Shown here piece by piece: positions 4,183 to 34,430 of a stretch of 41,305 nucleotides of DNA. Position numbers and translations under genes: made by a program. Location of the stretch: the NCBI GenBank assembly GCA_902783365.1, contig CACZQL010000076.1:1-41305 (forward strand), read 5' to 3'. Every line of letters starts with the position of its first letter. The first letter of the stretch is position 1. Below the pieces are notes generated by a model. The model was not told where the DNA came from. It worked only from the letters and a program-made list of their open reading frames with translations, and did no database searches. This DNA comes from an uncultured Bacteroidia bacterium (lineage in GTDB: Bacteria; Bacteroidota; Bacteroidia; Bacteroidales; F082).

Positions 4183-5748
4183 ATGGAGTTCAAGGGATTC
4201 AGCAAGCGGGACACGAGTATTTTAAAAGGCATTGGCATCTTGAGCATTGTCTTTCACAATTACTTCCATTGGCTGTTGCCGTCGCCAGGCGAGAATGAGT
4301 TCAGTTTCGCGGCGGAGCGGGTCACCCGTTTTTTCGACTTGTTGGTCAATGAGCCCGGCGAGTTTGTCAACATCCTGTTCAGTTTTTTGGGTCACTACGG
4401 GGTGCAGGTGTTTCTGTTGGTCAGTGGTTTTGGCCTCACCATGTCGATGCTCCGACGGGAGAAAGCGTGGCTGCCCTTTGTGTGGGAACGCCTCTTGAAG
4501 CTCTATGCGTTGCTTTTGACGGGCTTGGTGTTGAGTTATCTCGGCCTTGTGCTGATGCAGAACCGGGTCTTCAACGCTTGGGAGTGGAAGGAAATCGGTT
4601 ACAAGATGCTGTTCATGCACACGCTTTTGCCCAACTCGGGCTTGAGTGTGAACGGGCCGTGGTGGTTCTTCGCCTTGATTTTCCAGCTTTATTTGCTGTT
4701 TCCGCTGTTGTTCCGAGGGATGCGACGCTGGGGCTGGAAAGTCTTCGTGGCTGTTTGTGTGGTTTCCTACGCGATGATCTTCCTGTTTCGCGAGGTCTTC
4801 AACCTGTATCATGGCAGCATTTTGATGCAAAACGCGCCGGGGCATCTACCGGAGTTTTGCTTGGGCATCCTGTTGGCTTTTTCCAAAGACAAAAAGATAC
4901 ATTGGGGCTGGCTGGTGTTGGCGGTGGCGGTGTTCTGTCTGGGCAATGTCTATTCCTGGGCTTATCCCTTCACGTTCTTGGCGGTGGCGGTGATGACGGT
5001 TTTTGCCTATCAGGGCTTGAAGTCGCTTCCTTTCAAAAAACGTTGGATAGGGGAGGCGCTCTCTTATTTCGGGGGGATTTCCATGCTGCTGTTTGCCGTC
5101 CACGGTCTTTTCAGAGTGCCTTTTCTCAACTTGGCGGCGGCTTGGCCCACTCCTTGGGGACATCTTGCCACAGGTTTGCTATTTTTTGTCACCGTGTGGC
5201 TGTTCGCTTTGGCCGTCAAGCCACTGCATACCTGGCTCTCCAACTTGTTCTCCCGGTGTGCCATTCGTGAAAGCAAAGTTACAAAAATATTGCAACCAAT
5301 ACTTCAAGTGTTCTTGTTGCTGTTTTTTGCAGGTGTGATGGTCCATTACCTGGTTCAAGACCGCAGCTCGCGATCCATCACGCCCACGGTTGCTCCGCTG
5401 CTGATGGATCAAGGTGTGGTGACCCCGGCTGACAACTATGTGACTTTTGTGTCGTTCGACTTGCCGGCGAATCCTTCTGTGGTGCGTTTCAAAGGCAGTT
5501 TCGATTTCAAGAGCGATGCCGCCGAGGATCAGCTGCCTTCGTTGGTGGCCGACATCCGTAAGACCTATTGGAATAGCATCAAGCTCACCAAACGTGTGGA
5601 TGGCGATTGGTCACACTACGAGTTCAGTTGCGATTTTTACCGTTCTTTCATCCAAGATGTCAAGGATAAGCGCGTCTCCCTCTATTTCTTGAACCGTCAT
5701 CAAACTGAGATGGCCTTCCGTGATGTGCATGTCGAAGTGAGTTATTAA
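4183..5748 (+). CDS. Acyltransferase-3 family membrane protein with extra C-terminal domain
   Basis: This 521-residue protein resembles the acyltransferase-3 (OafA/YrhL-like) family of integral membrane O-acyltransferases. It starts with KGFSKRDTSILKGIGILSIVFHNYFHWL, whose His after the first helix is typical, and has about ten hydrophobic helices to about residue 380. Such enzymes acylate sugars of LPS, capsule or peptidoglycan at the membrane. The last 135 residues are soluble and probably extracytoplasmic. Their ending, with LYFLNRHQTEMAF, resembles the ends of the two LtaS-like proteins downstream (LYLFNRHKTELQL and CYFSNRGHIEFMI). It is the first gene of a plus-strand run with gaps of only 16 bp, so it is probably co-transcribed with the MBOAT and LtaS-like genes. 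Confidence 0.8.
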   Translation: MEFKGFSKRDTSILKGIGILSIVFHNYFHWLLPSPGENEFSFAAERVTRFFDLLVNEPGEFVNILFSFLGHYGVQVFLLVSGFGLTMSMLRREKAWLPFVWERLLKLYALLLTGLVLSYLGLVLMQNRVFNAWEWKEIGYKMLFMHTLLPNSGLSVNGPWWFFALIFQLYLLFPLLFRGMRRWGWKVFVAVCVVSYAMIFLFREVFNLYHGSILMQNAPGHLPEFCLGILLAFSKDKKIHWGWLVLAVAVFCLGNVYSWAYPFTFLAVAVMTVFAYQGLKSLPFKKRWIGEALSYFGGISMLLFAVHGLFRVPFLNLAAAWPTPWGHLATGLLFFVTVWLFALAVKPLHTWLSNLFSRCAIRESKVTKILQPILQVFLLLFFAGVMVHYLVQDRSSRSITPTVAPLLMDQGVVTPADNYVTFVSFDLPANPSVVRFKGSFDFKSDAAEDQLPSLVADIRKTYWNSIKLTKRVDGDWSHYEFSCDFYRSFIQDVKDKRVSLYFLNRHQTEMAFRDVHVEVSY

Positions 5749-5764
5749 ATAAAAGTAAAAAGTT

Positions 5765-7174
5765 ATGGTCTTTAGCAGCAACGTCTTTCTTTTGTATTTT
5801 CTGCCGCTCTTTTTGCTGTGCTATTTCATCTGCCCGCGGAAGTACAGAAATTATGTGCTGCTGCTGTTTTCTGTGGTGTTTTACGCTTACGGGGGTCCCG
5901 ACTTTGTGCTGATCCTCCTTGGCGCCACCACGGTCACCTATTTCCTTGTGAAGGCGATGTGCCGCACCGACAGCACCACCCAAAAGAAATGGCTTTGTGC
6001 CGCCGCCATCATCATCAACCTTGGTCTGTTGGTCTATTACAAATACGCAGGTTTCCTCATCAAAAACCTCTTGCCTTTCACCTCTCACCTTTCACCTCTC
6101 ACCTCTCACCTCTCAACCATCGTTCTCCCCATCGGCATTTCGTTTTTCACCTTCCAGTCCATCACCTACGTGCTCGACACCTACCGGGGCCAGGTGAAGC
6201 CCATGGACAAGCTGACCGACTATATCGTTTATATCATGATGTTTCCCCAGCTCATTGCCGGTCCTATCGTGAAATACGGTGACGTGGAGCAGCAACTGCG
6301 GCATCGCGAGAGTCCCGCGTCGGAATGCCTTCAGGGCTTCTATCGCTTCGTCATCGGTTTGAGCAAGAAGGTGCTCATCGCCGATGTCATCGCGGTGCAG
6401 GCCGATGCCTGTTTTGGCGGCAACCTCGCCACCTTGGACATGGGTTCCGCCTGGATTGGCAGCTTGGCCTACACGATGCAGCTCTATTTCGATTTCTCAG
6501 GCTACAGCGACATGGCCATCGGCCTCGGGCGCATCATGGGATTCAAGTTCCCCGAGAACTTCGACAATCCTTATACCTCCCGCTCCATCACAGAGTTCTG
6601 GCGCCGTTGGCACAAGACTCTTGGGGCCTTCATCATGAATTACCTCTACATCCCTTTGGGCGGCAACCGCAAGGGCCAACGCCGCACCTACCTCAACCTT
6701 TGGATTTGCTTCCTGCTCTCCGGCCTTTGGCACGGCGCCGCCTGGAACTTCGTCCTCTGGGGGGCGTTTCATGGATTCTTTATTGTCCTAGAGAAGCGAC
6801 TGGAGAGTGGAAAGTGGAAAGTTTTCCTTTCTCCACTCTCCACTTTCTTGCTGGTCAACTTCGGCTGGGTGCTGTTTAGGGCGGATAGCATCGGACATGC
6901 TTTTGACTATTATCGGGCCATGTTCTCTTTCAATTTCCAAGGCTTCAGCTGGAATGCCGGAAGTCAGTTCTATGTCACCCTCCTTGTGGCGTTCCTTTTC
7001 TCTTTCCTGACCTTGTTTCCCTTTGGGCGAAAAGTGGAGCAGTGGGTGTTTTACCGTAATTATGGAACCGTGGGGCATTGCGTTGCCTGGGGATGCTCCA
7101 TGCTGATCCTGCTCACTTGCATTGCCGCGTTGAACGCCACGGGATTCAGTCCCTTTATCTATTTCAGATTCTAA
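5765..7174 (+). CDS. MBOAT O-acyltransferase (plus-strand copy, MBOAT-0)
   Basis: This 469-residue polytopic membrane protein belongs to the MBOAT family (AlgI/DltB type). It begins MVFSSNVFLLYFLP and carries VLPIGISFFTFQ, AGPIVKYGD, YFDFSGYSDMAIGLG, TEFWRRWHKTLG and LSGLWHGAAW, where H323 is the expected catalytic histidine. It ends FSPFIYFRF, an ending shared by all four MBOATs here. Family members pass acyl groups (acetyl, D-alanyl) from cytoplasmic donors across the inner membrane. Two loops carry short-period repeats in frame: 6074-6118, encoding FTSHLSPLTSHLST, and 6801-6847, encoding ESGKWKVFLSPLST. No SGNH partner lies beside it, unlike the minus-strand copies; its neighbours are an acyltransferase-3 and LtaS-like enzymes. 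Confidence 0.92.
   Translation: MVFSSNVFLLYFLPLFLLCYFICPRKYRNYVLLLFSVVFYAYGGPDFVLILLGATTVTYFLVKAMCRTDSTTQKKWLCAAAIIINLGLLVYYKYAGFLIKNLLPFTSHLSPLTSHLSTIVLPIGISFFTFQSITYVLDTYRGQVKPMDKLTDYIVYIMMFPQLIAGPIVKYGDVEQQLRHRESPASECLQGFYRFVIGLSKKVLIADVIAVQADACFGGNLATLDMGSAWIGSLAYTMQLYFDFSGYSDMAIGLGRIMGFKFPENFDNPYTSRSITEFWRRWHKTLGAFIMNYLYIPLGGNRKGQRRTYLNLWICFLLSGLWHGAAWNFVLWGAFHGFFIVLEKRLESGKWKVFLSPLSTFLLVNFGWVLFRADSIGHAFDYYRAMFSFNFQGFSWNAGSQFYVTLLVAFLFSFLTLFPFGRKVEQWVFYRNYGTVGHCVAWGCSMLILLTCIAALNATGFSPFIYFRF
6074..6118. repeat. In-frame CACCTCT/CACCTTT repeat in MBOAT-0 (loop site 1)
   Basis: About six tandem CACCTCT or CACCTTT heptamers encode SHLSPLTSHLS just before the conserved VLPIGISFF segment. 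MBOAT-1 and MBOAT-2 carry the same kind of repeat at the same place; MBOAT-3 does not. Confidence 0.85.
6801..6847. repeat. In-frame GTGGAAA inverted repeat in MBOAT-0 (loop site 2)
   Basis: GTGGAAAG-type units are followed at once by their approximate reverse complement, CTTTCTCCACTCTCCACTTTC. The three minus-strand MBOATs carry a repeat of a different unit (AGGTGAA) at the equivalent position. Confidence 0.8.
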
Positions 7175-7190
7175 AAAAACAACCTCCCTC

Positions 7191-9602
7191 ATGAATAAAG
7201 ACAAGATTTCACAAGGCATCAAAGCTTTCCTCGACTTTCTCTTCTGGATGCTGGTTTTCGGTTTCGTGGTCAGGCTCTTTGAGGCCGCTTTGCTAGGCTA
7301 TTACCATCAGGAGTTTTGGAAACAGCTCTCGCTTTGCTGCTATGGTTATGGCTACGATATTCTCTTCTTCGCCAAGTTCGCCCTGCTGCTCTGCCCTTTA
7401 TACCTGCTCATCCATATTTTCTCGGAAGCCGCCGCCCGCTGGACCTTCCGCATCCTAGGAGCTGTCATGCTGCTGATTTCCAACGCGATGGTGATGTATT
7501 ATATGTCGGCCTACCTCCCTCTCGACAAGGTGTTTTTCGACTATAGTGTCAAAGAGCTGGTCTATATCTCCCAATCCACCGGGGCCTTCGTTTGGTGGGG
7601 CTATGTGGGGTTGCTGCTGATCCCCGCGCTGTTTTTGGTGGTCTCGCGCCGGAGGCTGAACCTGGGCCGCGGCTGGATGTTCGCCTGGCTGGCGCTCGCC
7701 CTCTGTGCCCTCTTTGTGTGGGAGGTGCCATCGTGGTTGTACAAGAGCATCGAGGAAAGAAACACCCTCTGCAACAAGCAGGAGTATTTCTGGAAAAGCC
7801 TGCTCAAGAAAGAAGCCAAGTTCTCCCGCTTCGACTCCAGGGATCTGGAACGCCAACATGAGCGTATCGAAAATTTCCAAGCGATGTTCCCCGAGGATGA
7901 CTTCGTCGATTTCCGTTACCCCTTCGCCCATCTGGACCAGTCGCCCGATGTGCTTTCTTCCTATTTCAACCTGCATCCCGACAAGAAACCCAACCTGGTG
8001 TTCATCATCAGCGAGGGTCTGAGCCGCGAGTTCAGTGGCGAGCACTCCTATTATCCCTCCGCCACCCCATTCCTCGACTCCTTGGCCAACCATAGTCTCA
8101 ACTGGCTCAACTGCATGTCGTCGTCGCAACGCACCATCGGGGTCCTGCCCACCTTGTTTGGCAGCCTGCCTTTCGGCAAACGCGGCTTCATGCAGTCGTC
8201 CAACACCCCCCGCTTCCACTCCCTCGTGGGCATCCTCAAAGACAACGGCTACCAGCCCTCCTTCTTCTATGGCGGATGGACCTGCTTCGACGATATGTGC
8301 TACTTCCTCAACGACATGGGCGTGGAAGACTATCTCCCCGATTATAACTCCTATCCCAAGGACATCCAGTCCACCTGGGGATTATACGATGAATATTTAT
8401 TTTCAGAATCATTAAAACATATTAAACAAAACAACCCTCAACCTCGTCTGGATATCTATCTTACGCTGACCACCCACGATCCTTTCGACTATCCCGACAA
8501 GGAACGCTACACAAAGACCTATATCCAATGGCTGGAGCGTGACCACCGTCTCAACGACATCCAGCCCTCGCAATACGAGCAATACGCCTCTTATCTCTAT
8601 TATGACGATTGCCTGCGCAAGTTCTTCAAGGATTACCAGAAGATGCCGGAATATGAGAACACCATCTTCGTGATTACTGGCGACCATTGCTTCAACGCGC
8701 AGTCGCAGGAGCTGGAGAAATACCATGTGCCGTTCCTCGTGTGGTCGCCGATGCTCAAGGCGCCGCGCCGTTTTCCGGCCATGGTGGCGCACCGCGATGT
8801 CACGCCTTCGTTCCTGGCCCTCATGAAGAATAACTATCACATCAATGCTCCTGAAGTCGTCAGCTGGATCAACACAGGTCTCGACACGTCATCGGTTTTC
8901 CGCGCCAACACCTTCACGCCGCAGTTGAAAAGCTCCCGCAAGATGGACAACATGGTCTATAAAGACTGGTTTTACGACGAGGGCAAGGTGTATCGTTTCG
9001 GCTACGACGAGGGTCGGCTCACCCTTACGGAAGTCGAGGCGGAGCCAATGGCCTCCTTCATGAGCGAGTACCGGGCCATGGACGACTACGTGATGAACAA
9101 CGACGCATTGATCCGGATTGATGAGGACAAGCAACGGCTGATACTGGTTGTCGATAGCACCAAGAGTGTGAACTATGTGCTGTTGAACTCCTTCGTTCGT
9201 CCCATCGACACGTTGGAACACGAAAATGTGTTCAAACTGGTCAACGACTATCCTTTCAACCTGTTTACCATGCCCTTGTCCGATAGCTTGCAGTCGGTGG
9301 TGGTATATAGCGATTTCAATATCCGTATTCCCCGTCAGGAAAACGGCGGCGCCAAGGTGATGCTGGGTTTCGAGTTGAGCCGTCACGACGGCACCCGCGA
9401 GGTCATCAAGCCCATTGTGGTGAATTACGACTGGTATGAGTACTACGACCGTTGGCAGCATTTCTCCATGACCCAAACGTTCAACCGGTCGCAGCTGCAT
9501 TATCAGGATGGCGACCAGCTGAAGTGCTATTTCTCCAACAGGGGTCACATTGAGTTTATGATCGCCGATTTTAACCTGAAAATTGTGGAAGTCAGTGAAT
9601 AA
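7191..9602 (+). CDS. LtaS-like membrane sulfatase-fold transferase 1
   Basis: This 803-residue protein has about five N-terminal membrane helices (to about residue 190), then an alkaline-phosphatase-superfamily domain like lipoteichoic acid synthase LtaS or phosphoglycerol transferase OpgB/MdoB. The expected residues are present: metal-binding E275 in FIISEGLS, the nucleophile T315 in SSQRTIGVLP, and D498-H499 in VITGDHC, plus a THDPF histidine motif. It should act on the periplasmic face, moving phosphoglycerol or a similar head group from a phospholipid to a glycan or lipid. Residues after about 600 form an extra region whose final 90 or so residues resemble the ends of the acyltransferase-3 protein and of the next gene. 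The start is 16 bp after the MBOAT stop. Substrate and donor are inferred from the family only. Confidence 0.85.
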   Translation: MNKDKISQGIKAFLDFLFWMLVFGFVVRLFEAALLGYYHQEFWKQLSLCCYGYGYDILFFAKFALLLCPLYLLIHIFSEAAARWTFRILGAVMLLISNAMVMYYMSAYLPLDKVFFDYSVKELVYISQSTGAFVWWGYVGLLLIPALFLVVSRRRLNLGRGWMFAWLALALCALFVWEVPSWLYKSIEERNTLCNKQEYFWKSLLKKEAKFSRFDSRDLERQHERIENFQAMFPEDDFVDFRYPFAHLDQSPDVLSSYFNLHPDKKPNLVFIISEGLSREFSGEHSYYPSATPFLDSLANHSLNWLNCMSSSQRTIGVLPTLFGSLPFGKRGFMQSSNTPRFHSLVGILKDNGYQPSFFYGGWTCFDDMCYFLNDMGVEDYLPDYNSYPKDIQSTWGLYDEYLFSESLKHIKQNNPQPRLDIYLTLTTHDPFDYPDKERYTKTYIQWLERDHRLNDIQPSQYEQYASYLYYDDCLRKFFKDYQKMPEYENTIFVITGDHCFNAQSQELEKYHVPFLVWSPMLKAPRRFPAMVAHRDVTPSFLALMKNNYHINAPEVVSWINTGLDTSSVFRANTFTPQLKSSRKMDNMVYKDWFYDEGKVYRFGYDEGRLTLTEVEAEPMASFMSEYRAMDDYVMNNDALIRIDEDKQRLILVVDSTKSVNYVLLNSFVRPIDTLEHENVFKLVNDYPFNLFTMPLSDSLQSVVVYSDFNIRIPRQENGGAKVMLGFELSRHDGTREVIKPIVVNYDWYEYYDRWQHFSMTQTFNRSQLHYQDGDQLKCYFSNRGHIEFMIADFNLKIVEVSE

Positions 9603-11997
9603 CCGTCTTGACAGTTGGCTTTCGGGGCTACGCTCTTGGTTGGGGTTGAACATTGTGCTGCTTATCTGCATGGTGGCTATGCGCCCTTTGTTTTTTTTGG
9701 AGGTGCATAGCAGGTTAGGGGTGGCCCCACTGCAGTTCTTCACCATCCTGTCGGGGGCGGTGTTCGATTTGTTGCTGGTGGCGCGCATCTTCTGTTTCGG
9801 TTTGATACCTTTTCTGCTGCTCCATCGCTGGAGGCCCAAGCTGGCGCGAGGGATTTTTCTTGGCCTGACTGTCCTCTATATCGTGGTCAACGCCTTGCTG
9901 ATGGAATACTACTGCAATCTGGGCATGCCCCTGGATCATGTCATCCTGGTTTATACCCCCGAGGAGTTAAAAACCACGGTGTTTTCCTCCGCGTCGATAA
10001 CGATAGGGCAAGTGCTGTGGATGCTGCTTCTGGTGGCTTTGCCAGTTTTTTTGGCTTTTGTTATCGTGATATCAATCCGTCATAATACGCTCTCCCTGAT
10101 TGTCTTGTCATCAGCGATAATGCTGAGTGCGCTGGTCAGCTATCCGCGTCTTTTGCGCACCGAGGCCTTGTATCCCGCCCACGAGGACTTCTGCCTTGCC
10201 GTGAACCAGCCTTCTTATTCCTGGGTGAAAATCATGGATTATCGGCACGACGGGGATGCCCAAAAAGCCTTTGAGTCTGAGCATGAAGAGTATCCTTTTT
10301 ATCGTCAGGCGGATGACCCTGATGTGCTGGGGCCTTTTTTGGAGGAGAGTTCCGACGGCTTGCCGCCTAACTTGGTGTTTGTGGTGGTGGAGAGTCTGGG
10401 CCAGCGCCTCACGGGTGTCGATGTCCCCGGCATCTCGTTCACGCCTTTTATCGACAGTCTTGCCCAAGAGAGCCTCTATTGGCCCAACTGCCTTTCCACG
10501 GCTGAGCGCACTTTCGGGGCGCTGCCCTCACTGTTTGCCTCCGCGCCCCATGGCCGTTACGGCTTCTCCACGCCTTTGGCGCCCACGCCAAGGCACCATT
10601 CCTTGCTGAAAGACTTGAAACGCAATGGCTACCGCTTGTCGTTCTTCTATGGCGGCGACATGGCCTTCGACCGTTATGATTTCTTTTTGAAAGACAATGG
10701 CGTCGATTTCCTGTTGGAACCCGAGGTGGTGGTGTCCGACTCGGCGACCTATCGTCTGATGGTCGATAACCACCGCTGGGGTCTCGACGACGCGCAGCTT
10801 TTCCACGCCGCGGAGCGTTGCATCGAGGCCGACACCTTGAAACGGCCCAGAATGGACCTCTTCTTGACCCTCTCCACGCACGAGCCCTTCCTCATCGACG
10901 CTATTGAGTATTATGAGAGCCTGGTGCGCCGTATGGTGGAGCAGGCAGGAAACCTCTCCGACAAAGAGCGCGACAATGTGCTGCGAAACACCAATATCTT
11001 CGCCTGTTATCTCTATGCCGACCAATGTGTCCGCGAGTTGTTCCACTTCTACCGTCGCCAGCCTGGCTTCGAGAACACCCTTTTTGTGGTCACAGGCGAC
11101 CATCGCATGGGGCCTCTGCCTTTTGGCAACGCCATCCATAAATACAATGTGCCTTTCCTTGTGTATTCGCCTTTGCTGAAACGGTCCAAGACCATGCGGG
11201 CCGTGGTGTCGCATCTCGATGTCACCCCTTCGCTCAACGCCTATCTCCATGCCCGTTACGACTATGCCATCGACAGCGCTTGCCACTGGTTGGGCAGGGC
11301 TTTCGACACGGTGGCGGACTTCCGCAGCGAGCGCCGGCTGCTCTTTATGCTCAACAACCGCGACGCTGTGGACTACCTCCAGGGCGATCTCATGCTGAGC
11401 CGTTCAAAACTGGCCCGTCTGGACTCCTGTTTCCGGGAGACGGTGCTGCACGACGATGCTTTGCTCGACACCCTGCAAAAGGAACGGGCCCGGTTCGACC
11501 AACGCAGCCGGTATGTGGTGCAAAACGACCTCCTTCTGCCGCCCGACAACGACCGCCTGCTCTATGAGTGCCACCTCGATTTTGAGAAACATACCCTGGC
11601 AGTCTTCAATCCCTATTTGGACCGCGACAGCGGCTTCTTGCACATCGACTCGTTGGAAACCTATTTCCCGCTTTGCTCCCACATCAAAGTGGCGCCCCAG
11701 TATCATCACCTCACGGTGGAGGTCTCTTTCGACCTCAAGAATCTCGACCCTGCCAAGGAACTTCCCGAGCTGGTGGTAGAGCAAGGAAGCCGTCGCGACC
11801 CCAGGCCCTTGGCGTTGGAAACAGCCGGGATGGCCCAACCAGGGGCATGGCGGCACTTCCGTCTCCGCACGGTGGTCAATGTCTTTGATCAAAAGGAAAA
11901 CGAGGAACTGAAATTGTATCTCTTCAACCGGCATAAAACCGAATTACAGCTTGACAACCTGCGGGTCACTGCGAAAGCATCCATTCGGCGTCCATGA
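9595..11997 (+). CDS. LtaS-like membrane sulfatase-fold transferase 2
   Basis: This is a paralogue of the preceding gene, 800 residues from a GTG start at 9595 that overlaps the upstream stop by 8 bp. A TTG at 9583 is also possible; no ATG precedes the first membrane helix. Four to five N-terminal helices precede the LtaS-like domain with E266 (FVVVESLG), nucleophile T306 (AERTFGALPS), a STHEPF histidine and D502-H503 (VTGDHR). The C-terminal 110 residues, including KLYLFNRHKTELQL, resemble the end of the acyltransferase-3 protein. The overlap implies translational coupling to the first LtaS-like gene. Two copies may serve priming and extension, as in some Firmicutes LtaP/LtaS pairs, or two substrates. 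Its 3' end overlaps the convergent SGNH-5 gene by 32 bp. Confidence 0.83.
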   Translation: MNNRLDSWLSGLRSWLGLNIVLLICMVAMRPLFFLEVHSRLGVAPLQFFTILSGAVFDLLLVARIFCFGLIPFLLLHRWRPKLARGIFLGLTVLYIVVNALLMEYYCNLGMPLDHVILVYTPEELKTTVFSSASITIGQVLWMLLLVALPVFLAFVIVISIRHNTLSLIVLSSAIMLSALVSYPRLLRTEALYPAHEDFCLAVNQPSYSWVKIMDYRHDGDAQKAFESEHEEYPFYRQADDPDVLGPFLEESSDGLPPNLVFVVVESLGQRLTGVDVPGISFTPFIDSLAQESLYWPNCLSTAERTFGALPSLFASAPHGRYGFSTPLAPTPRHHSLLKDLKRNGYRLSFFYGGDMAFDRYDFFLKDNGVDFLLEPEVVVSDSATYRLMVDNHRWGLDDAQLFHAAERCIEADTLKRPRMDLFLTLSTHEPFLIDAIEYYESLVRRMVEQAGNLSDKERDNVLRNTNIFACYLYADQCVRELFHFYRRQPGFENTLFVVTGDHRMGPLPFGNAIHKYNVPFLVYSPLLKRSKTMRAVVSHLDVTPSLNAYLHARYDYAIDSACHWLGRAFDTVADFRSERRLLFMLNNRDAVDYLQGDLMLSRSKLARLDSCFRETVLHDDALLDTLQKERARFDQRSRYVVQNDLLLPPDNDRLLYECHLDFEKHTLAVFNPYLDRDSGFLHIDSLETYFPLCSHIKVAPQYHHLTVEVSFDLKNLDPAKELPELVVEQGSRRDPRPLALETAGMAQPGAWRHFRLRTVVNVFDQKENEELKLYLFNRHKTELQLDNLRVTAKASIRRP

Positions 11998-13480: not shown

Positions 13481-13482
13481 GG

Positions 13483-16352: not shown

Positions 16353-16374
16353 AGGTTTACTCGTTACGGGTGTG

Positions 16375-16382
16375 CAAAGTTA
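16375..16382 (-). promoter_or_regulatory. -7 box for the MBOAT-3/SGNH-4/SGNH-5 unit
   Basis: The minus strand reads TAACTTTG, matching TAnnTTTG, 22 bp before the MBOAT-3 ATG, in the 51-bp gap after the SGNH-3 stop. It splits the eight-gene minus run into a possible 5-gene and 3-gene transcript. Confidence 0.65.
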
Positions 16383-16403
16383 CGTTTTTTTTGGATTGCG
16401 GGA

Positions 16404-17720: not shown

Positions 17721-17723
17721 GGC

Positions 17724-19163
17724 TCAGAAGCGGAAATAGATGAAGGGATTGAAATCGGTGACACAGAGTGAACCTGTGCTGAGCACCAACAGGACGAGGC
17801 AGATGGCGAACATCACCCACGAAAGCCGTTTGGAGTAATGCTCGGCGAAGATAAGGTTTTGCAGCCGTTGTCCACCTTTAAACAGGGTGAGGAACGAAAA
17901 CAGCAGCGCAAGGACCAAAGTGGACCAAAACAGCGCGTCGGCATTGCCGCTCAACCCGCTTCTGAACGAGAACAAGGCGGCATAATACCCTCCCGCCCCG
18001 GCGATGTTGTCGGCCCTGAACAGCACCCAACCCATCATCACGATGAAGAAAGTTGAGAGTTGAGAGGTGAGAGTTGAGAGGTACCTTTCACCTTTCACCT
18101 TTATCCTTTCACCTTTCACCTTAAACAGTTTGTCGAGGCAAATGAAGAGCCCGTGGTACGCGCCCCAAAGGACGAACGTCCAGGAGGCGCCATGCCAGAG
18201 ACCCGAGAGGAGGAAGCAGAGCCAAAGATTGAGATAGGTGCGTCCCTTGCCTTTGCGGTTGCCTCCCAACGGGATGTACAGGTAGTTCATGATGAACGAC
18301 CCCAGGGTGATATGCCACCGTTTCCAAAACTCGGTGATGCTCTTGCTCGTGTAGGGGTCGTTGAAGTTTTCCGGGAAACGGAATCCCATGATCATGCCCA
18401 AGCCGATGGCCATGTCGCTGTAACCGGAGAAGTCGAAGTAAATCTGCATGGTGTAGGCCAGGATGCCCAACCAGGCGGAGCCGGTGGACAACTGTGCGTA
18501 ATTCATGCCAAACACTTGGTCGGCATAAAGTGCCATCGTGTTGGCAATCAACACTTTTTTACTTAAACCGATGACAAAACGGTAAAAGCCCACCACCCGG
18601 TTTTCCATGGTGCTCTCCCGCGAGACCAGCTGCTCGGCCACCGTGTTGTAATTGACGATGGGGCCGGCGATGAGTTGCGGAAACATCATGATATACAGCA
18701 CATAGTCGGTGAGTTTTTTGCTCGGCGGCGTCACCCCGCGATACACGTCCAAAGTATAGGTGAGCGACTGGAAAGTGAAAAACGAGATGCCGATGGGGAG
18801 CACGATGGCTGAAAGGTGAGAGGTGAGAGATGAGAGGTGAGAGGTGAGAAGTGGGAGACGGGAGAGGTTTTCGATGATGAAACCTGCGTATTTGAAATAG
18901 AGCAAAAGTCCCAAAGAGATGAGGATGGATGCCGCGCAGAACAGCTTTTTGCCTCGCTTGGCTTTCACCATACCGTTCACCAAATAGTAGTTGACGACGC
19001 ATTCGCCCACCAACAGGAGCAGGAAATCGGGGGCTCCGTAGGCATAGAATACCAGGGAGAATAACAGAAGGGTATAGTTCCTGAACTTCTTGGGTGTCAA
19101 GAAATACAACACCAAAAAGATGGGGAGGAAAAAGAAGAGGAAGATATTGCTGCTGAAAACCAT
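17724..19163 (-). CDS. MBOAT O-acyltransferase (MBOAT-2)
   Basis: This 479-residue MBOAT starts MVFSSNIFLFFFLP, with VLPIGISFFTFQ, AGPIVNYNT, YFDFSGYSDMAIGLG and LSGLWHGASW (catalytic H324), and ends FNPFIYFRF. It carries in-frame repeats at both loop sites: 18810-18857, encoding LTSHLSSLTSHLSA, and 18051-18122, encoding KVKGERIKVKGERYLSTLTSQLST. It sits 12 bp after SGNH-2 and 3 bp before SGNH-3 in the operon, fitting a tandem MBOAT/SGNH pair. Together they should acylate an extracytoplasmic glycan, with acetyl the commonest group in AlgI-like enzymes, but the acyl donor cannot be read from sequence. Confidence 0.92.
   Translation of the reverse strand: MVFSSNIFLFFFLPIFLVLYFLTPKKFRNYTLLLFSLVFYAYGAPDFLLLLVGECVVNYYLVNGMVKAKRGKKLFCAASILISLGLLLYFKYAGFIIENLSRLPLLTSHLSSLTSHLSAIVLPIGISFFTFQSLTYTLDVYRGVTPPSKKLTDYVLYIMMFPQLIAGPIVNYNTVAEQLVSRESTMENRVVGFYRFVIGLSKKVLIANTMALYADQVFGMNYAQLSTGSAWLGILAYTMQIYFDFSGYSDMAIGLGMIMGFRFPENFNDPYTSKSITEFWKRWHITLGSFIMNYLYIPLGGNRKGKGRTYLNLWLCFLLSGLWHGASWTFVLWGAYHGLFICLDKLFKVKGERIKVKGERYLSTLTSQLSTFFIVMMGWVLFRADNIAGAGGYYAALFSFRSGLSGNADALFWSTLVLALLFSFLTLFKGGQRLQNLIFAEHYSKRLSWVMFAICLVLLVLSTGSLCVTDFNPFIYFRF
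18051..18122. repeat. In-frame AGGTGAA inverted heptamer array in MBOAT-2 (site 2)
   Basis: AGTTGAGAGGTGAGAG-type units are followed by CCTTTCACCTTTCACC-type units, meeting at about 18080. The position in the protein matches the arrays of MBOAT-1 and MBOAT-3. Confidence 0.85.
18810..18857. repeat. In-frame GAGAGGT heptamer array in MBOAT-2 (site 1)
   Basis: About six GAGAGGT/GAAAGGT units lie in one orientation just before the codons for VLPIGISFF, in the same loop as 6074-6118 and 21609-21656. Confidence 0.85.
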
Positions 19164-19175
19164 GGCGTGATAGGG

Positions 19176-20516
19176 TTATTGCTGTTGTTCTAGTTTCGCT
19201 TTCTTGTTGTGTTGAAGGACGTATTCGGCGTTTTGGCGGAGGTTCTCCTCAAGGGTGATGCCCCGTTGGACGGCCTGTTCCTCGATGGCTTTGAACCATT
19301 GAGGGTTGTTTTTCATGTTGCTGATGATTTGGTTGATGGCGGCTTCGTCGTTGAGATGACCCTCACGGAGCTGCTCAAGGGCGTAGGGAATGAATCCGAA
19401 CATGTAGTCGGGCAGATAGGCGGAAGTGAACATGACGAGCACCAAGTCGGCGTCCTCGATGACTTCGCCCGCATCGAACACCATGTTCAGGTGCTTCCCG
19501 TTGTAAAACTTCCTTGAAGAATAGATATCCATATTGTAGAACCACAAATCCCATTGGCGGAACGCATCGACGAAACAGCTGCGTCGTAGTTGGTTGAAGT
19601 AGCTGTCGCTTACCACTAGGAGGTTGATGCGGTCGGCGTCTGCCGTGTCGCGCAGGGTGAACACAGGGTTGGGCATAGGAGGCTTGGGAAAGGGAAAGAG
19701 CAGGTTCAGGCTTTCCTCCAACTCATCGTCGATGTAGGAGTAGTCGGTACTGATGTTGGGGTCGATAACCTCGATGGAGGGCATTTTGTGTCCCGTCAAC
19801 GCCTCGATTTTGCGGAACAATGAGTCGGCCACCATGGGGATGGTCGCCTCCGACCAATGGGTGCCGGTTTTGGCGTAAAGGGGATAAGGGAACTTGTCCT
19901 TGAGGTCAATGAAATAGTTGAGGAAGTCGATGTGCGGGATGCCTTTCTCCTTGTATAGTTCGATGTAATATTGCTCCATGCTGAAACAGGGGAGGTACCT
20001 GCGGTATTTCCTGGGCATGTATTCGGGATAGACTTCCGTCTTGCTCGGGGCGAAGACCACCAGGAAGTCGGTGCCATGGTTTCGCAACGTGTCGATAAAG
20101 GCCAGCGTGGCCTCGACGTCTTTTTGTGCCTGCGCCTTCGCCAGCTCCACCGTAAGATGTTGCTCCGCCAAGGCTTCCCCAGTGATATGCTTCAGGTAAA
20201 GGGTGTTGTACAACTCGTTGTTCAAGCCCTTTTCGATGGTGTTGTTGGTGATTTTGTTGAAACAGGTGTAGGACACCTGGTTGTAGTTACGGATGAAAAA
20301 CTCACGGAAACCCGTGTGTAACTTGGCGTATTTGGTGAGGTAGTCTTGATAGGACCCGTCGTGGTAGGTTTCCCAACTGGGCTCCACAGGTTTCAGCTGC
20401 TCGGTGAAGCCTCCCAAGGGTTTCATGGGGATCCATCCCGTCAGCCCTTGGACCAGCACGCTGACGAGCAACGCCAGAAAGAAGAAAAACTGTATGGAAT
20501 GGTGCGGGTGTTTCAT
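19176..20516 (-). CDS. AlgX/AlgJ-like SGNH acyltransferase (SGNH-2)
   Basis: This 446-residue protein has an N-terminal membrane segment (about 8-25) and an AlgX/AlgJ-like SGNH domain. The nucleophile block is LLVVSDSYFNQ (S305, with Ser for Gly before DS); the histidine block is KTGTHWSEAT (H220, without the Asp of D-x-H-W). VVFAPSKTEVYPEYMP matches the APxKxxVYPE block of its paralogues. The closest copy in the window is SGNH-3. Three base pairs separate it from MBOAT-1 upstream and 12 bp from MBOAT-2 downstream, so it could serve either. It should be anchored in the inner membrane and act in the periplasm. Confidence 0.82.
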   Translation of the reverse strand: MKHPHHSIQFFFFLALLVSVLVQGLTGWIPMKPLGGFTEQLKPVEPSWETYHDGSYQDYLTKYAKLHTGFREFFIRNYNQVSYTCFNKITNNTIEKGLNNELYNTLYLKHITGEALAEQHLTVELAKAQAQKDVEATLAFIDTLRNHGTDFLVVFAPSKTEVYPEYMPRKYRRYLPCFSMEQYYIELYKEKGIPHIDFLNYFIDLKDKFPYPLYAKTGTHWSEATIPMVADSLFRKIEALTGHKMPSIEVIDPNISTDYSYIDDELEESLNLLFPFPKPPMPNPVFTLRDTADADRINLLVVSDSYFNQLRRSCFVDAFRQWDLWFYNMDIYSSRKFYNGKHLNMVFDAGEVIEDADLVLVMFTSAYLPDYMFGFIPYALEQLREGHLNDEAAINQIISNMKNNPQWFKAIEEQAVQRGITLEENLRQNAEYVLQHNKKAKLEQQQ

Positions 20517-20519
20517 GAC

Positions 20520-21959
20520 TCAAAACCTGAAATAGATGAAAGGACTGAATCTCGAAGCGTTAAGGGCTGCGATACAGAATAAAAATGCAAAGATAGCAAT
20601 AATCCAGACAACTACATGCTGCCGGTCGGTATAATGGGCAAAATAGACCTTTTCCTGAAGCTTTTTCCCGAAAGGAAAGAGGGTGATGAACGAAAACACG
20701 AAGGCGAGAAGCAGCGTGAAGTAGAAGCGGGCTTCGTTTTGGAGTGTCACCGGCGCGAAGTCGAAGGCAAACATCCTGCCCACAAACGTGAAGGCGTCGC
20801 CCACATCCTCGATGCGGAAAAACATCCAGAGGATGGACACGATCAAGAAAGTTGAAAGGTGAGAGGTGAAAGGTGAGAGGTGAGAGGCACCTTTCACCTT
20901 TAACCTCTCACCTTTCACCTTAAATAGTTTGTCGAGGCAGATGAAGAGTCCGTGGAACGCGCCCCAAAGCACGAAGTTCCACGAGGCGCCATGCCAAAGG
21001 CCGGAGAGGAGGAAGCAAATCCAGAGGTTGAGATAGGTCCTGCCTTTTCCTTTACGGTTGCCGCCGAGCGGGATGTAGAGGTAGTTCATGATGAAGTTCC
21101 CCAAGGTGATGTGCCAGCGTTTCCAGAACTCCGTGACACTGCGACTGGTGTAGGGGTTGTCGAAGTTTTCCGGGAAACGGAAGCCCATGATACGACCCAA
21201 GCCGATGGCCATGTCGCTGTAACCCGCGAAGTCGAAGTAAATCTGGAAGGTATAGGCCAAGGCGACGATCCAGGCGGTGCCAGTGTCCAACCCCGCCACG
21301 GGGTTTTTCAGCACCGCGTCCACCTGCGCCCCAAGCACGTCGGCGATGAGGATCTTCTTTGACAAGCCGATGACAAACCGGTAAAACCCTTGCAGGCGGT
21401 CGTCGAGGGTCGATTCCCGTTGCCTGATTTGGTCGGCCACCTCGTTGTAGCGCACAATGGGACCGGCGATGAGCTGGGGAAACATGGTGATATACAGCAT
21501 GTAGTCGCTGAGCCGGTCCATGGGTCGGTTCACCCCACGGTAGGTGTCGAGGGTGTAGGTGACACTCTGGAACGAAAAGAAGCTGATGCCGATGGGGAGC
21601 ACGATGGTTGAGAGGTGAGAGGTGAGAGGTGAAAGGTGAGGAGTGAGGAGGGAGAGGTTTTCGAGAAAGAAACCTGCGTATTTATAGTAGGCCAACAGGC
21701 CGAGGCTGACGAAGAGGGAGAGGGTGCAGAGGAGTTTTTTCCGACGGGGTTTGTCGGTGCGGCACATCGCTTTAACAAGGTAGAAGTTGGCGATGATGGA
21801 GAGGAGGAGCTGCACGAGGAAGTCGGGTGCGCCCCAGGCATAGAACACGAGGGAGGCCAACAGCAAAGTGTAGTTGCGGGTCTTCTTCGGTAGGAGGAAA
21901 TACACCAGGAAGAACACCGGCATGAAACAGAGAAGGAACACGTTGCTACTGAATACCAT
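20520..21959 (-). CDS. MBOAT O-acyltransferase (MBOAT-1)
   Basis: This protein has 479 residues from the ATG at 21959, which gives the family N-terminus MVFSSNVFLLCFMP; the longer open frame upstream overlaps SGNH-1 and is not family-like. Conserved blocks are VLPIGISFFSFQ, AGPIVRYNE, YFDFAGYSDMAIGLG, TEFWKRWHITLG, LSGLWHGASW (H323) and the end FSPFIYFRF. It carries in-frame heptamer arrays at site 1 (21609-21656) and site 2 (20850-20922). The first 14 bases overlap the 3' end of SGNH-1, so translation is probably coupled. Its role is the membrane acyl-transfer step, with SGNH-1 or SGNH-2 as partner. Confidence 0.92.
   Translation of the reverse strand: MVFSSNVFLLCFMPVFFLVYFLLPKKTRNYTLLLASLVFYAWGAPDFLVQLLLSIIANFYLVKAMCRTDKPRRKKLLCTLSLFVSLGLLAYYKYAGFFLENLSLLTPHLSPLTSHLSTIVLPIGISFFSFQSVTYTLDTYRGVNRPMDRLSDYMLYITMFPQLIAGPIVRYNEVADQIRQRESTLDDRLQGFYRFVIGLSKKILIADVLGAQVDAVLKNPVAGLDTGTAWIVALAYTFQIYFDFAGYSDMAIGLGRIMGFRFPENFDNPYTSRSVTEFWKRWHITLGNFIMNYLYIPLGGNRKGKGRTYLNLWICFLLSGLWHGASWNFVLWGAFHGLFICLDKLFKVKGERLKVKGASHLSPFTSHLSTFLIVSILWMFFRIEDVGDAFTFVGRMFAFDFAPVTLQNEARFYFTLLLAFVFSFITLFPFGKKLQEKVYFAHYTDRQHVVVWIIAIFAFLFCIAALNASRFSPFIYFRF
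20850..20922. repeat. In-frame AGGTGAA inverted heptamer array in MBOAT-1 (site 2)
   Basis: A GTTGAAAGGTGAGAGGTGAA-type arm meets a CACCTTTCACCTTTAACC-type arm near 20887. It encodes KVKGERLKVKG...SPFTSHLST. Confidence 0.85.
21609..21656. repeat. In-frame GAGAGGT heptamer array in MBOAT-1 (site 1)
   Basis: Tandem GAGAGGT/GAAAGGT units in one orientation encode LTPHLSPLTSHLST before VLPIGISFF. Confidence 0.85.
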
Positions 21960-23337
21960 AATGCTGCTGTGCTTTGGTGGAACGTTTGGTGGGAATGCTA
22001 TCGCGCAAGGCGGGAAGGTACTGTGCCGGTGATTTCTTGAGCGCCAGGTCCGCTTCGTCGCGGAGTGCCTCTTCAAGGTCGGTGCCCCAGGCTTCCACGC
22101 GGCGTTGGAGGTCGGCAAACCAGGCTTTCTGGTGCCGGATGTCATTCATGAGCCACTCCTTTTTCGCCGCAATCTCCTCAGGGTCGTAGCAAAGCTCGGT
22201 GAGAAGTTGCTGTGTGAAACCGTCGCTCATCTTGTAGAGCTGGGTGGAACTGTAGGAGAGCATCACAAAGTCGGCGTCGAGCACCTCGTCCAACAGGTCG
22301 AGCTCGCTGATGTGATGGGCGGGCTCGTCGAAATAGACGGTGCTGAAATAGTACCAATAGGGGAGGGCCTGGAAGATATCCTTGAAAGGCGTGTGTTCGA
22401 TGATGTTCCAATAAAACGAGTCGCCGATGGTGATGAGGGTTGGCTTCACCGTTCCGGGCTTCTCAATCACCCGGGTCTCGGCGTAGTAGTTGGGGGCTTT
22501 CTCCAGGGGACGGATGAGGTTGAGTAGCTGCTCCAGGTCGTCGTCGGGGTGCAGGGTGGCCTCGTATCTCGGGCCGACGCTGAAATGGTTCATCTGAATC
22601 CCTTTCGCCTGCTCCATGTAACCGATCAAACTGTCGGCCACCCGCATCGCGGCGAGGTTGCTCCAATGGGTGCCGGTTTGCGGAAAGAGCAGATAGTCGG
22701 CGGTGTCCTTGGCTTGCTGAAACCACGACCGGATGTCTATGTAGTGGATGCCGGCCTTGTCGAACGATGTCTTGAAATAGTCGTAGGCGGAGAGGTGCGG
22801 TTTTTTTTGATAGGGAACCTCGGTGGGGAGTTTCTCGGGATAGATCATCTCCTTGCCCGGAATCAGCAACACGAAGAGATGGGTTCCGTAGTCCTCAAGG
22901 AGGTGCTGGATTTGGTAGAGGCGGAAAACCTCCCCGTTCATCTTATTGATCATGTCGAGCGAGTCCTTGGCGTATTTCTCGGCGTTGCCCTCGTAGTATT
23001 CCCTCACGTTTTGCGATTCGAAGTACCAGCCGTCGTCGCTGACTTGGATCCAGTTGCCGCTCAGGAGGTTCGACATGTCGAAGAAGTCCCACAGATATTG
23101 GTTGTAAAACCGGGTGAGGGGTTCCCTAAAGCCGTAATGCTGTTGCAGATAGGCTTCCGACTGCCGTTGGAAACGCTGCGAGGTCCAGTTTTTGAAGCTG
23201 AGTTGCGGCTTGGGACTCTCGACCTCCACGCCGGCGAGCTTCTTGAAAGGGAAGATCCTGAGTTGCTGCTGTAGCAATGGAAGCGACACCACAACGGCGG
23301 TGAGGATGAATAATATGAGCTTGGTACGGCTTTTCAT
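21946..23337 (-). CDS. AlgX/AlgJ-like SGNH acyltransferase (SGNH-1), first gene of minus operon
   Basis: This protein has 463 residues from the ATG at 23337 (MKSRTKLILFILTAVVVSL), an N-terminal membrane anchor. A non-ATG start farther upstream would lie across the promoter. The SGNH block is LITIGDSFYW (S307); the histidine block is QTGTHWSNLA (H224), with Gly at the Asp position of D-x-H-W. It groups with SGNH-5 at the opposite end of the array by shared AGVEV, GFREPL, NQYLWDF and PDDDLEQLLNL motifs. A divergent promoter region of only 45 bp separates it from the U32-family gene. Its 3' end overlaps MBOAT-1 by 14 bp. Confidence 0.83.
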   Translation of the reverse strand: MKSRTKLILFILTAVVVSLPLLQQQLRIFPFKKLAGVEVESPKPQLSFKNWTSQRFQRQSEAYLQQHYGFREPLTRFYNQYLWDFFDMSNLLSGNWIQVSDDGWYFESQNVREYYEGNAEKYAKDSLDMINKMNGEVFRLYQIQHLLEDYGTHLFVLLIPGKEMIYPEKLPTEVPYQKKPHLSAYDYFKTSFDKAGIHYIDIRSWFQQAKDTADYLLFPQTGTHWSNLAAMRVADSLIGYMEQAKGIQMNHFSVGPRYEATLHPDDDLEQLLNLIRPLEKAPNYYAETRVIEKPGTVKPTLITIGDSFYWNIIEHTPFKDIFQALPYWYYFSTVYFDEPAHHISELDLLDEVLDADFVMLSYSSTQLYKMSDGFTQQLLTELCYDPEEIAAKKEWLMNDIRHQKAWFADLQRRVEAWGTDLEEALRDEADLALKKSPAQYLPALRDSIPTKRSTKAQQHYGIQ

Positions 23338-23360: not shown

Positions 23361-23370
23361 GAAAAAATTG

Positions 23371-23378
23371 TATTTTTG
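23371..23378 (+). promoter_or_regulatory. -7 box for the U32-family gene
   Basis: TATTTTTG ends 4 bp before the ATG at 23383, so the transcript is expected to have a very short or no leader. This rules out the in-frame TTG at 23368 as start. Confidence 0.6.
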
Positions 23379-23382
23379 CCTC

Positions 23383-33862: not shown

Positions 33863-34430
33863 CGTGAGGGTCTTCAATGGTGAACAACTTCAGTCCGTTT
33901 TGTTTGCCGGCGATATAGCACAGCTCGTTGCCGTCGGCGTCGCGCAGGGGTTGGCCTTGCCTTACGATGTGCGACACCTCCAAGGGATAATCGAGGCGGA
34001 AATGATGGATGCTGATCTCGTCGCCGGCAAGGAGTTTCCCGTGTTGGCTTTCGGTGACCAGAAACCGGTTCTCGCCGACGCAAAGGAGCCGGATCTTGCG
34101 GTTGGGTAGCCATTCCGCTTCCACGGTGGCCCCTACCTTGATTTCGTCGGCGCAAACCGCCTTCTCAATCCAGTCGCTGTCGGAAGGTTGCATCCCCGTC
34201 AACTCCTCCCAGGAGGCGTGGCCGAGATAATGGGCCAGGGCGTCGAGGGTGGTTTTCCGTGCCGTGATGGGCTCTTTGGCGTACCCCATCAGCCGTTTCA
34301 AAGTGTTGACCCCCAGACGGTCGTTGGCGGGAAATGATTCCGACAGCACCTCGAAATCCTTGGCGCGCGTGAAATCCATGCCCGACTTTTGCTTGATTTG
34401 CTCGATAATGGATAGAGGAAGCATAATCAT
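33855..34430 (-). CDS. Unidentified protein upstream of and overlapping the kinase
   Basis: This protein has 191 residues from the ATG at 34430 (MIMLPLSIIEQIK); an ATG at 34424 is also possible. The longer open frame upstream passes through the promoter and is not protein-like. Residues 1-80 are helical (FEVLSESFPANDRLGVNTLKRLMGYAKE, TTLDALAHYLGHASWEEL) and resemble a DNA-binding or adaptor helix bundle. Residues 100-190 look like a small beta-barrel (KVGATVEAEWLPNRKIRLLCVGENRFLV). The 8-bp overlap with the kinase start suggests translational coupling and a joint function. The family is not recognised. Confidence 0.6.
   Translation of the reverse strand: MIMLPLSIIEQIKQKSGMDFTRAKDFEVLSESFPANDRLGVNTLKRLMGYAKEPITARKTTLDALAHYLGHASWEELTGMQPSDSDWIEKAVCADEIKVGATVEAEWLPNRKIRLLCVGENRFLVTESQHGKLLAGDEISIHHFRLDYPLEVSHIVRQGQPLRDADGNELCYIAGKQNGLKLFTIEDPHDD

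Follow-up and report, generated by a model that had tools for sequence, protein, structure and literature searches.

What would a bacterium do with four MBOATs and five SGNH proteins at a single locus? The characterized MBOAT/SGNH systems, as far as the available portions of their descriptions go, pair a single MBOAT with either one SGNH or two. The window, i.e. the whole stretch of 41,305 nucleotides that was analyzed, is contig C76 of a bin of 2.75 Mb (154 contigs, 84% complete). Two tight convergent runs at positions 4183-23337 encode four MBOATs, five AlgX/AlgJ-type SGNHs, one AT3 and two LtaS-like enzymes, an array that we did not find described in the open-access PMC literature. The reading we favor, with a probability of roughly 0.6, is that the locus may encode a multi-relay system for O-acylation and phospho-substitution of one glycan.

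Gene content and order of the array

The following genes were assigned, with U32 and ABC counted as flank:

250..2091, plus strand: CotH-family kinase-like protein with a T9SS type A sorting tail (Pfam CotH 1e-38, Por_Secre_tail 3e-7; TIGR04183 1.2e-8)
2149..4107, plus strand: GH16-like protein with an N-terminal membrane anchor read from the sequence (Glyco_hydro_16 3.7e-5, C-terminal part); start codon uncertain, ORF opens at 2116
4183..5748, plus strand: AT3 acyltransferase with a C-terminal jelly-roll domain (PF01757 6e-29; domain model pLDDT 86.6)
5765..7174, plus strand: MBOAT 4, type M2, ends FIYFRF (PF03062 5e-32; both His and shuttle tail)
7191..9602, plus strand: LtaS-like transferase 1 (PF00884 3e-33; PDB VP1736 1.4e-21, LtaS 2e-5)
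9583..11997, plus strand: LtaS-like transferase 2 with a C-terminal jelly-roll domain, TTG start uncertain (PF00884 3e-27; PDB VP1736 8e-14, lipoteichoic acid synthase 2 1e-5; jelly-roll match 2e-6)
11966..13480, minus strand: SGNH 5, type S11, two hairpin copies at 12182-12313 and 11972-12067 (PF16822 1.5e-9)
13483..14829, minus strand: SGNH 4, type S5, likely partner of MBOAT 3 (PF16822 2e-11; M5 then S5 in 18/18)
14829..16352, minus strand: MBOAT 3, type M5, ends FIYFRF (PF03062 3e-34)
16404..17720, minus strand: SGNH 3, type S1 (PF16822 2.8e-11)
17724..19163, minus strand: MBOAT 2, type M3, ends FIYFRF (PF03062 6e-35)
19176..20516, minus strand: SGNH 2, type S1 (PF16822 2.4e-10)
20520..21959, minus strand: MBOAT 1, type M1b, ends FIYFRF, ORF opens at 22145 (PF03062 6e-35)
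21946..23337, minus strand: SGNH 1, type S2 (PF16822 1e-16; AlphaFold model pLDDT 92.5; nearest solved structures AlgJ, AlgX and PatB1)
23368..25275, plus strand: flanking U32 peptidase (PF01136 1e-72)
25279..27078, plus strand: flanking ABC exporter-type protein (PF00005, PF00664)

Read from 23337 downward, the minus strand carries SGNH, MBOAT, SGNH, MBOAT, SGNH, MBOAT, SGNH and SGNH, separated by -14, 3, 12, 3, 51, -1 and 2 bp. Pfam matches and ORF coordinates agree with the original prediction in enzyme content and in this order, as well as in its statement that all gaps but one measure 14 bp or less, the exception being the 51-bp gap. In the plus run (AT3-MBOAT-LtaS-LtaS) the gaps are 16, 16 and -20 bp, the last value depending on the uncertain TTG start of the second LtaS-like gene. 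The two runs overlap at 11966-11997. The starts of SGNH 1, SGNH 5 and MBOAT 1 were placed within longer ORFs according to length and homology. The interval first proposed, 4183-23337, is right for the array itself, but it left out the CotH and GH16-like genes that precede it, which we count as part of the system. Pfam revealed neither a glycosyltransferase nor a polymerase among the 16 main ORFs of 250-27078.

The window genes are intact and their sequences bear signs of purifying selection. The dN/dS ratio was 0.04-0.23 for 13 of the 14 genes, each compared with the best match available (AT3 yielded no estimate); with dS values of 1.1-3.7, close to saturation or beyond it, these ratios are informative in direction only. 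Heptamer repeats lie inside the MBOAT genes, where slippage switching is possible in principle; this idea was weakened by the occurrence of the repeats throughout the genome (94 exact 15-mers vs 11 in the control).

Catalytic motifs and shared modules

The four MBOAT ORFs match PF03062 at 5e-32 to 6e-35, and the three that were scanned also match the DltB model, at 155-175 bits against a cut-off of 375. Conservation was assessed in the sets passing score and length limits, i.e. 102 of 107 MBOATs and 134 of 146 SGNHs. Both His columns are kept in 102/102 MBOATs, including all four of the window. The FXYXXF tail, present in all four as the acyl-shuttle motif FIYFRF, was found in 101/102 (the exception, L048_8469p, reaches its contig end). 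According to a published account, PatA auto-acetylates the Tyr of this tail, a model that its authors extend to other MBOAT-SGNH pairs (PMC12148441). In the MBOAT tree the four window proteins fall into four clades, with SH-aLRT values of 100 for M1, 100 for the window part of M2, 99 for M3 and 100 for M5; M2 as a whole (52) is weak, and M1b within M1 (16) is unsupported. Since these clades are separate and have orthologues in other species, recent tandem duplication of one MBOAT was ruled out.

The five SGNH ORFs match ALGX (PF16822) at 1.5e-9 to 1e-16, with 38.4-61.9 bits against a curated cut-off of 26.5, and the top PDB matches of SGNH 1 are AlgJ (2e-12), AlgX (2e-8) and PatB1 (1e-6). The His column is occupied in 134/134 SGNHs and the Ser column in 128/134, with Gly in the other six; all five window proteins keep both residues. 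The AlgX/AlgJ family is described as having a Ser-His-Asp triad with a DxH motif (PMC4148444). The triad Asp (position -2) is present in 14 of the 134 SGNHs, i.e. missing from 120, and in none of the five from the window. The label AlgX-like therefore holds for fold and profile and fails for the triad Asp, and transferase activity cannot be carried over unchanged from AlgX. In SGNH 1, the one SGNH modeled, only helices follow residue 363 and the model lacks a C-terminal CBM.

Both LtaS-like ORFs combine a Sulfatase domain (PF00884) with a membrane anchor read from the sequence. They score 49 and 32 bits with the LtaS equivalog (cut-off 970) and 29 and 17 bits with the OpgB equivalog (cut-off 574). 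The GH16-like protein reaches 23.7 bits with Glyco_hydro_16 in its C-terminal part and 20.2 bits over its whole length, the cut-off being 22. Its EIDIE motif (residues 474-478), invariant in 10/10 aligned homologues, we take to be the ExDxE motif of GH16. Sequence searches gave no PDB match for this protein or for the CotH protein.

Two modules, neither with a Pfam match above cut-off, recur in different enzymes of the locus. A helical hairpin is common to all five window SGNHs and the GH16-like protein (residues about 152-200). A search of the genome with the hairpin returned seven matches, all at the array locus, and an unguided comparison of the SGNH and GH16-like alignments reported the hairpin stretch alone (probability 95.4). 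At the best-scoring places in gene order, 28 of 32 hairpin ORFs were clear SGNH or GH16-like members. The jelly-roll domain had only three matches in the genome: AT3 (8e-56), LtaS-like 2 (2e-6) and, weakly, LtaS-like 1 (0.2). Two hhalign comparisons of AT3 with LtaS-like C-termini gave probabilities of 94 and 95.9, the second alongside nine control stretches that scored at most 2.0; the domain is absent from some LtaS-like ORFs of relatives. The jelly-roll is a common fold, and Foldseek pointed to no specific ligand, showing weak likeness to, among others, CBM16, CBM4, AlgX and BcsB (TM-scores of 0.31-0.66, normalized to query length), with unrelated proteins among the matches. The confinement of both modules to this locus within the genome ties the enzymes together.

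Linkage and distribution in relatives

Several groups of loci were compared: (i) L031-L050, most of them chosen for closely spaced MBOAT matches, (ii) L051, added separately from another search, (iii) L052-L070, further congeneric MBOAT matches (L070 is from the bin itself), (iv) L071-L090, which lie outside the genus, and (v) L091-L120, from a search with SGNH 4-type proteins. Nine loci (L093-L097, L100, L109, L111 and L114) were dropped before counting as duplicates, five of them confirmed by sequence and four by the length of the contig. The slices measured at most about 22 kb, and many stop at contig ends.

Three or four MBOATs were found in 21 of the 59 fetched loci with any array gene (a partly hand-picked sample); the maximum per slice was four MBOATs and eight SGNHs. 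CotH is present in 25 mapped loci and the GH16-like protein in 31. Gene order is mostly constant (373 of 397 pairs in the majority direction), and the types of neighboring MBOATs and SGNHs share 1.66 bits of mutual information (97 pairs), compared to at most 0.59 in 10,000 shuffles; these order and pairing counts come from related genomes and partly hand-picked loci, uncorrected for kinship. Besides the constant succession of M5 and S5, M3 is followed by S1 in 15/17 cases, S2 precedes M1b in 20/25 and an SGNH stands directly after M2 in 17/20. In the window, an SGNH adjoins MBOATs 1-3 and not MBOAT 4 (M2), which is followed by the first LtaS-like gene. Array members were gained and lost between relatives. 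Some units are solitary: L113 and L116, which are other Bacteroidales records, hold isolated M5-S5 pairs, and in L056, L057, L075 and L076 units of type M2 are not accompanied by the remaining types. The original prediction of a dedicated linked locus unlike one-MBOAT systems is borne out by the recurrence of genes and order in relatives; scattered, unlinked genes would have spoken against it, and in the fetched loci they are linked and mostly colinear, apart from some units alone.

The carriers form a group of uncultured gut Bacteroidales, many from ruminants. Of the named records that contain the SGNH 4 type, 30 in all, nine have a ruminant in their title and another 11 bear RUG labels, which denote rumen bins; one array carrier is bacterium F082. 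The SGNH family is patchy within the genus, being present in 82 of 99 genomes and wholly absent from eight of 46 good-quality congeners. A phylum-wide count, which scored no more than four candidates in each genome, found matches in at least seven of 391 genomes besides the bin itself, at least one or two in each.

An array SGNH divergently adjoins the U32 gene in 23 of the 24 mapped loci with U32. In eight congeners where no SGNH was matched, apart from a single weak match in G407 (E 8e-8), U32 has other neighbors, alike in seven of the eight as judged by gene length only. Its scores there are 639-719 bits; in relatives, uncut copies beside the array score about 860-1040. Given these different neighbors and lower scores, an empty site at U32 in the SGNH-less congeners was not supported.

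One glycan or several targets

The genes, their linkage and order, the His, Ser and Tyr motifs and the shared modules are established at the level of sequence. By homology to PatA/PatB and DltB/DltX/DltD, we infer that each MBOAT would take an acyl group from cytoplasmic acyl-CoA and load it onto the Tyr in the FIYFRF shuttle at its own C-terminus. The group would then cross the membrane and be received by the Ser of a neighboring membrane-anchored periplasmic SGNH transferase, which would use it to acylate a hydroxyl of a glycan that is exported or lies in the envelope. The parallel MBOAT/SGNH types could thus give the polymer multiple acyl substitutions that differ in group, position or residue; AT3 would contribute another acyl group, and a phospho-substituent (phosphoglycerol or a comparable group) would come from the two LtaS-like enzymes. 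The jelly-roll common to AT3 and the LtaS-like enzymes may bind the same polymer. Trimming, editing or transfer of that polymer would fall to the GH16-like protein, whose hairpin, shared with the SGNHs, may hold it in the same periplasmic complex. The earlier claim of one polymer gains two new lines of evidence, jelly-roll and hairpin.

Parts of this scheme recall known systems, as far as the accessible portions of their descriptions go. The AlgI/AlgJ/AlgX/AlgF alginate system of Pseudomonas has one MBOAT with two AlgX-family SGNHs, and its pathway includes a CBM (on AlgX) and a polymer-cutting enzyme, AlgL; the fold of SGNH 1 is closest to AlgJ and AlgX. However, the array exceeds it in MBOATs and SGNHs per slice, its SGNHs mostly lack the DxH Asp, LtaS-like, AT3, CotH and GH16-like proteins are added, and a general ORF scan of the array recognized no alginate polymerase or AlgF. 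PatA/PatB likewise joins an MBOAT with a C-terminal FXYXXF acyl shuttle to a separate SGNH transferase, but as a single pair with a single target. The DltB/DltX/DltD system for D-alanylation of teichoic acid also relays through a shuttle Tyr, whereas the array MBOATs carry the motif fused. Cellulose acetylation by WssHI and CcsHI employs an MBOAT and an SGNH, and in clostridia the cellulose locus also includes a cognate glycoside hydrolase, but no cellulose synthase was recognized in the array ORFs scanned. The LtaS-like enzymes share membrane anchor and PF00884 domain with LtaS and OpgB and match both models; they differ in scoring far under the equivalog cut-offs, in the extra C-terminal jelly-roll domain and in their best PDB match, the uncharacterized VP1736.

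The relays might instead be separate systems sharing a site, each pair with its own polymer and acting on different molecules (e.g. lipid A or core, capsule, protein O-glycan). The stand-alone M5-S5 and M2 units indicate modules able to work independently, and no shared polymer gene was recognized in the locus; against this, the order is mostly constant and the two shared modules are confined to the locus in the genome, and we consider such a division unlikely. It is less probable still that most of the array is a redundant or decaying duplication, with one or two active relays and the others relics or regulators. Gly at the Ser column, the widespread loss of the triad Asp and the turnover of members between relatives would fit decay, but the window genes are intact, their five SGNHs keep His and Ser, dN/dS is low in 13/13 estimates and four MBOAT clades are kept across species. 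An amplified peptidoglycan O-acetylation of the PatA/PatB kind appears very improbable: one MurNAc position needs neither four relays nor LtaS-like, AT3 and GH16-like proteins, AlgJ and AlgX are the nearest structural matches, and the distribution in the genus is patchy, even though the MBOAT-SGNH layout and tail motif are the same and the structural matches include PatB1, whose target is a secondary wall polymer.

A more specific form of the one-glycan reading, which we offer tentatively, is an 'acyl-code' factory. Here the hairpin would dock several SGNHs and the GH16-like protein onto a single complex in the periplasm, the jelly-roll would bring AT3 and the LtaS-like enzymes to the same chain, most SGNHs would use a Ser-His dyad, and gain or loss of modules in a fixed row would yield species-specific acyl and phospho marks. 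A locus of as many as four MBOATs and as many as eight SGNHs in mostly constant order makes the division of specificity among parallel relays testable, and the hairpin and jelly-roll provide handles on partner and substrate recognition.

Gene content and layout of the locus

The four MBOATs, five SGNH proteins, single acyltransferase-3 (AT3) and two LtaS-like enzymes of the original prediction were all located at their predicted places by Pfam, with the SGNH proteins assigned to the ALGX family and the LtaS-like enzymes to PF00884. The tight packing claimed for the minus strand was also confirmed: the distances between consecutive genes are -14, 3, 12, 3, 51, -1 and 2 bp, i.e., one of 51 bp and the others of 14 bp or less. 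The plus- and minus-strand runs are convergent and overlap at 11966-11997. Two further genes precede AT3 on the plus strand:

250-2091, plus strand, CotH protein with a T9SS tail (first gene of the run)
2149-4107, plus strand, GH16-like protein (ahead of AT3)

Both adjoin the array again in mapped loci of relatives and are parts of the system. Pfam recognised no polymer-making gene in the 16 main ORFs between 250 and 27078, and this is the largest gap in the proposed mechanism. On the right flank (32651-33877), a protein kinase domain of eukaryote-like type was recognised (PF00069, 1e-30).

Tandem heptamers resembling TCTCACC/TTTCACC occur within all four MBOAT genes and the adjacent U32 peptidase gene:

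6066-6117, tandem heptamers
15234-15307, tandem heptamers
18052-18128, tandem heptamers
18808-18857, tandem heptamers
20849-20921, tandem heptamers
21607-21658, tandem heptamers
25088-25122, tandem heptamers

They are translated into 7-residue units such as LTSHLSP. There are 35 matches in the window versus 0.23 expected, and 94 exact 15-mers in the whole genome versus 11 for the control. The MBOAT 3 gene also contains an inverted repeat (14968-15036), near the low-complexity sequence NLTNFNSLNSLNSLNS.

A modular row conserved in relatives

The MBOATs (M types) and SGNHs (S types) of the window and of fetched loci of relatives (L numbers) were typed by tree. The window MBOATs are spread over four separate clades of a 50-sequence tree (SH-aLRT 99-100), in which the M1b node and the node of the whole M2 type are weakly supported; the sister of the M5 clade (support 99) consists of two stand-alone M5-S5 pairs, in L113 and L116.

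The recurrent gene order beside U32 is S2-M1b-S4-M1a-S1-M3-S1-S8/S10-M5-S5-S3. The full row is present in L032 and, with its first gene cut, in L051; other loci are shorter. Opposite the row lie some or all of the LtaS-like, AT3, M2, GH16-like and CotH genes. In 23 of the 24 mapped loci having U32, an array SGNH is divergent beside it, and in 20 it is of type S2. Linkage in relatives, on which the prediction depended, was upheld in the fetched loci: 373 of 397 ordered pairs (34 arrays, eight types) run in the direction that prevails for the pair in question, a count in which agreement is favoured by construction. Order is near-even for S4 with M3, S3 with M1a, and S3 with M3. Three or four MBOATs are found in 21 of the 59 loci carrying any array gene, and the most SGNHs in one of these loci is eight (L040, one of them cut). 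Some M2, M1a, S6 and S7 units are sited elsewhere, in slices without U32 (L047, L049, L056, L057, L059, L060 and L069).

The pairing of neighbouring MBOATs and SGNHs is specific. M5 is followed by S5 in 18/18 cases, M3 by S1 in 15/17 and M2 by some SGNH in 17/20, and S2 stands ahead of M1b in 20/25. The mutual information between neighbour types is 1.66 bits, versus at most 0.59 in 10,000 shuffles (97 pairs; kinship not corrected). The locus is a real conserved system with signs of selection.

One SGNH of L040 (16874-18226) is seemingly chimeric, its first ~90 residues being unlike the S5 type and the remainder S5-like in alignment, which hints at recombination between array members. A second type of MBOAT row occurs in the same genus, with four MBOATs in L037 (4727-14512) and two in L050 (6023-10912). 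In both rows the MBOATs alternate with proteins some 300-394 residues long; of the ones scanned, three fall into no Pfam family and one gave a weak TIGR02171 match. FkbH- and MaoC-like genes lie close by in L037.

Active sites and shared modules

Both histidines are present in 102/102 aligned MBOATs and the C-terminal FXYXXF motif in 101, the sole exception reaching a contig end. In PatA the Tyr of this tail is auto-acetylated, and PatB uses an acetylated hexapeptide (PMC12148441). Among 134 SGNHs, the His column is invariant and the Ser column contains 128 Ser and 6 Gly; the latter are S1-type proteins of relatives, possibly inactive partners. Position -2 from His is occupied by Gly (101), Asp (14), Ser (14), Ala (2), Asn (2) or Glu (1). 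In AlgJ this residue is the triad Asp (own alignment; PMC4148444), and therefore 120/134 SGNHs, including all five of the window, are without that Asp. CE2 esterases provide a known case of a Ser-His dyad (PMC9487903). The model of SGNH 1 (pLDDT 92.5) matches AlgJ, AlgX and PatB1 best.

Every window SGNH carries at its C-terminal end a helical hairpin some 44 residues long, in two copies in SGNH 5, and the hairpin also lies within the GH16-like protein (residues about 152-200). All seven matches in the own genome lie within this locus. With a model whose training included the window SGNHs and GH16-like protein, hits at E 0.01 in the window and L031-L090 fell in SGNH ORFs (132) and GH16-like ORFs (11), with no hit in the other kept ORFs. 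A match was found in 64/197 genomes of Bacteroidales. The 29 top-scoring places that were given as loci contain 32 ORFs with the hairpin; 28 of these ORFs clearly belong to the SGNH or GH16-like proteins, and four (L152, L163, L164 and L165) score only at hairpin level. In a profile comparison with no preset position the hairpin stretch was the only one aligned (probability 95.4), and four hairpin peptides gave no Pfam match above cut-off.

A C-terminal domain some 100 residues long is common to AT3 and the LtaS-like enzymes (hhalign 94 and 95.9, versus at most 2.0 for nine control stretches); the AT3 copy was modelled and has a beta jelly-roll fold (pLDDT 86.6). In the own genome the domain is restricted to AT3 and LtaS2, with a weak match (E 0.2) in LtaS1; LtaS-like ORFs of three relatives (671-680 residues) are without it. 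Since the solved structures resembling it include unrelated jelly-rolls besides CBM16, CBM4, AlgX and BcsB, sugar binding is a guess.

Distribution and proposed mechanism

The contig that forms the window comes from a 2.75 Mb bin. Among 60 genomes, four or more MBOAT matches were found in 19/36 of the genus (own genome included) versus 2/24 others of the order. An SGNH profile built from 40 sequences matched 82/99 genomes of the genus (38/46 of good-quality ones), with five or more matches in 55 and a maximum of 13, although matches may exceed genes, since the own genome gave seven for the five window SGNH genes. Besides the own genome, at least 7/391 genomes of a phylum sample, with up to four candidates scored per genome, had one or two matches each. 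The broader family PF16822 is present in 132/393 genomes of the order. The titles of 30 named SGNH 4-type records are all Bacteroidales, Bacteroidia or, once, bacterium F082, and nine name a ruminant (buffalo, yak, goat, red deer).

In the proposed mechanism, an acyl group would pass from acyl-CoA to the tail Tyr of each MBOAT, and from there via a neighbouring SGNH to a glycan; this relay step is proposed by homology. AT3 would contribute a further acyl group, the LtaS-like enzymes a phospho-group, and the GH16-like protein would edit the chain, and the hairpin and jelly-roll would keep the enzymes together on a single substrate or in a single complex; we infer these as the most likely roles.

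Judged from sequence, the system would resemble AlgI/AlgJ/AlgX and PatA/PatB in its mode of working. Its MBOAT part belongs to the family by the membership tests applied, and the SGNHs agree with PF16822 (AlgX/AlgJ) in fold and profile but not in the DxH triad, whereas the LtaS-like enzymes score far under the equivalog cut-offs of LtaS/OpgB. A search of the open-access literature in PMC showed no description of the multi-relay row, the hairpin or the jelly-roll. The chemistry is of an already known kind, and the architecture is a novel variation.
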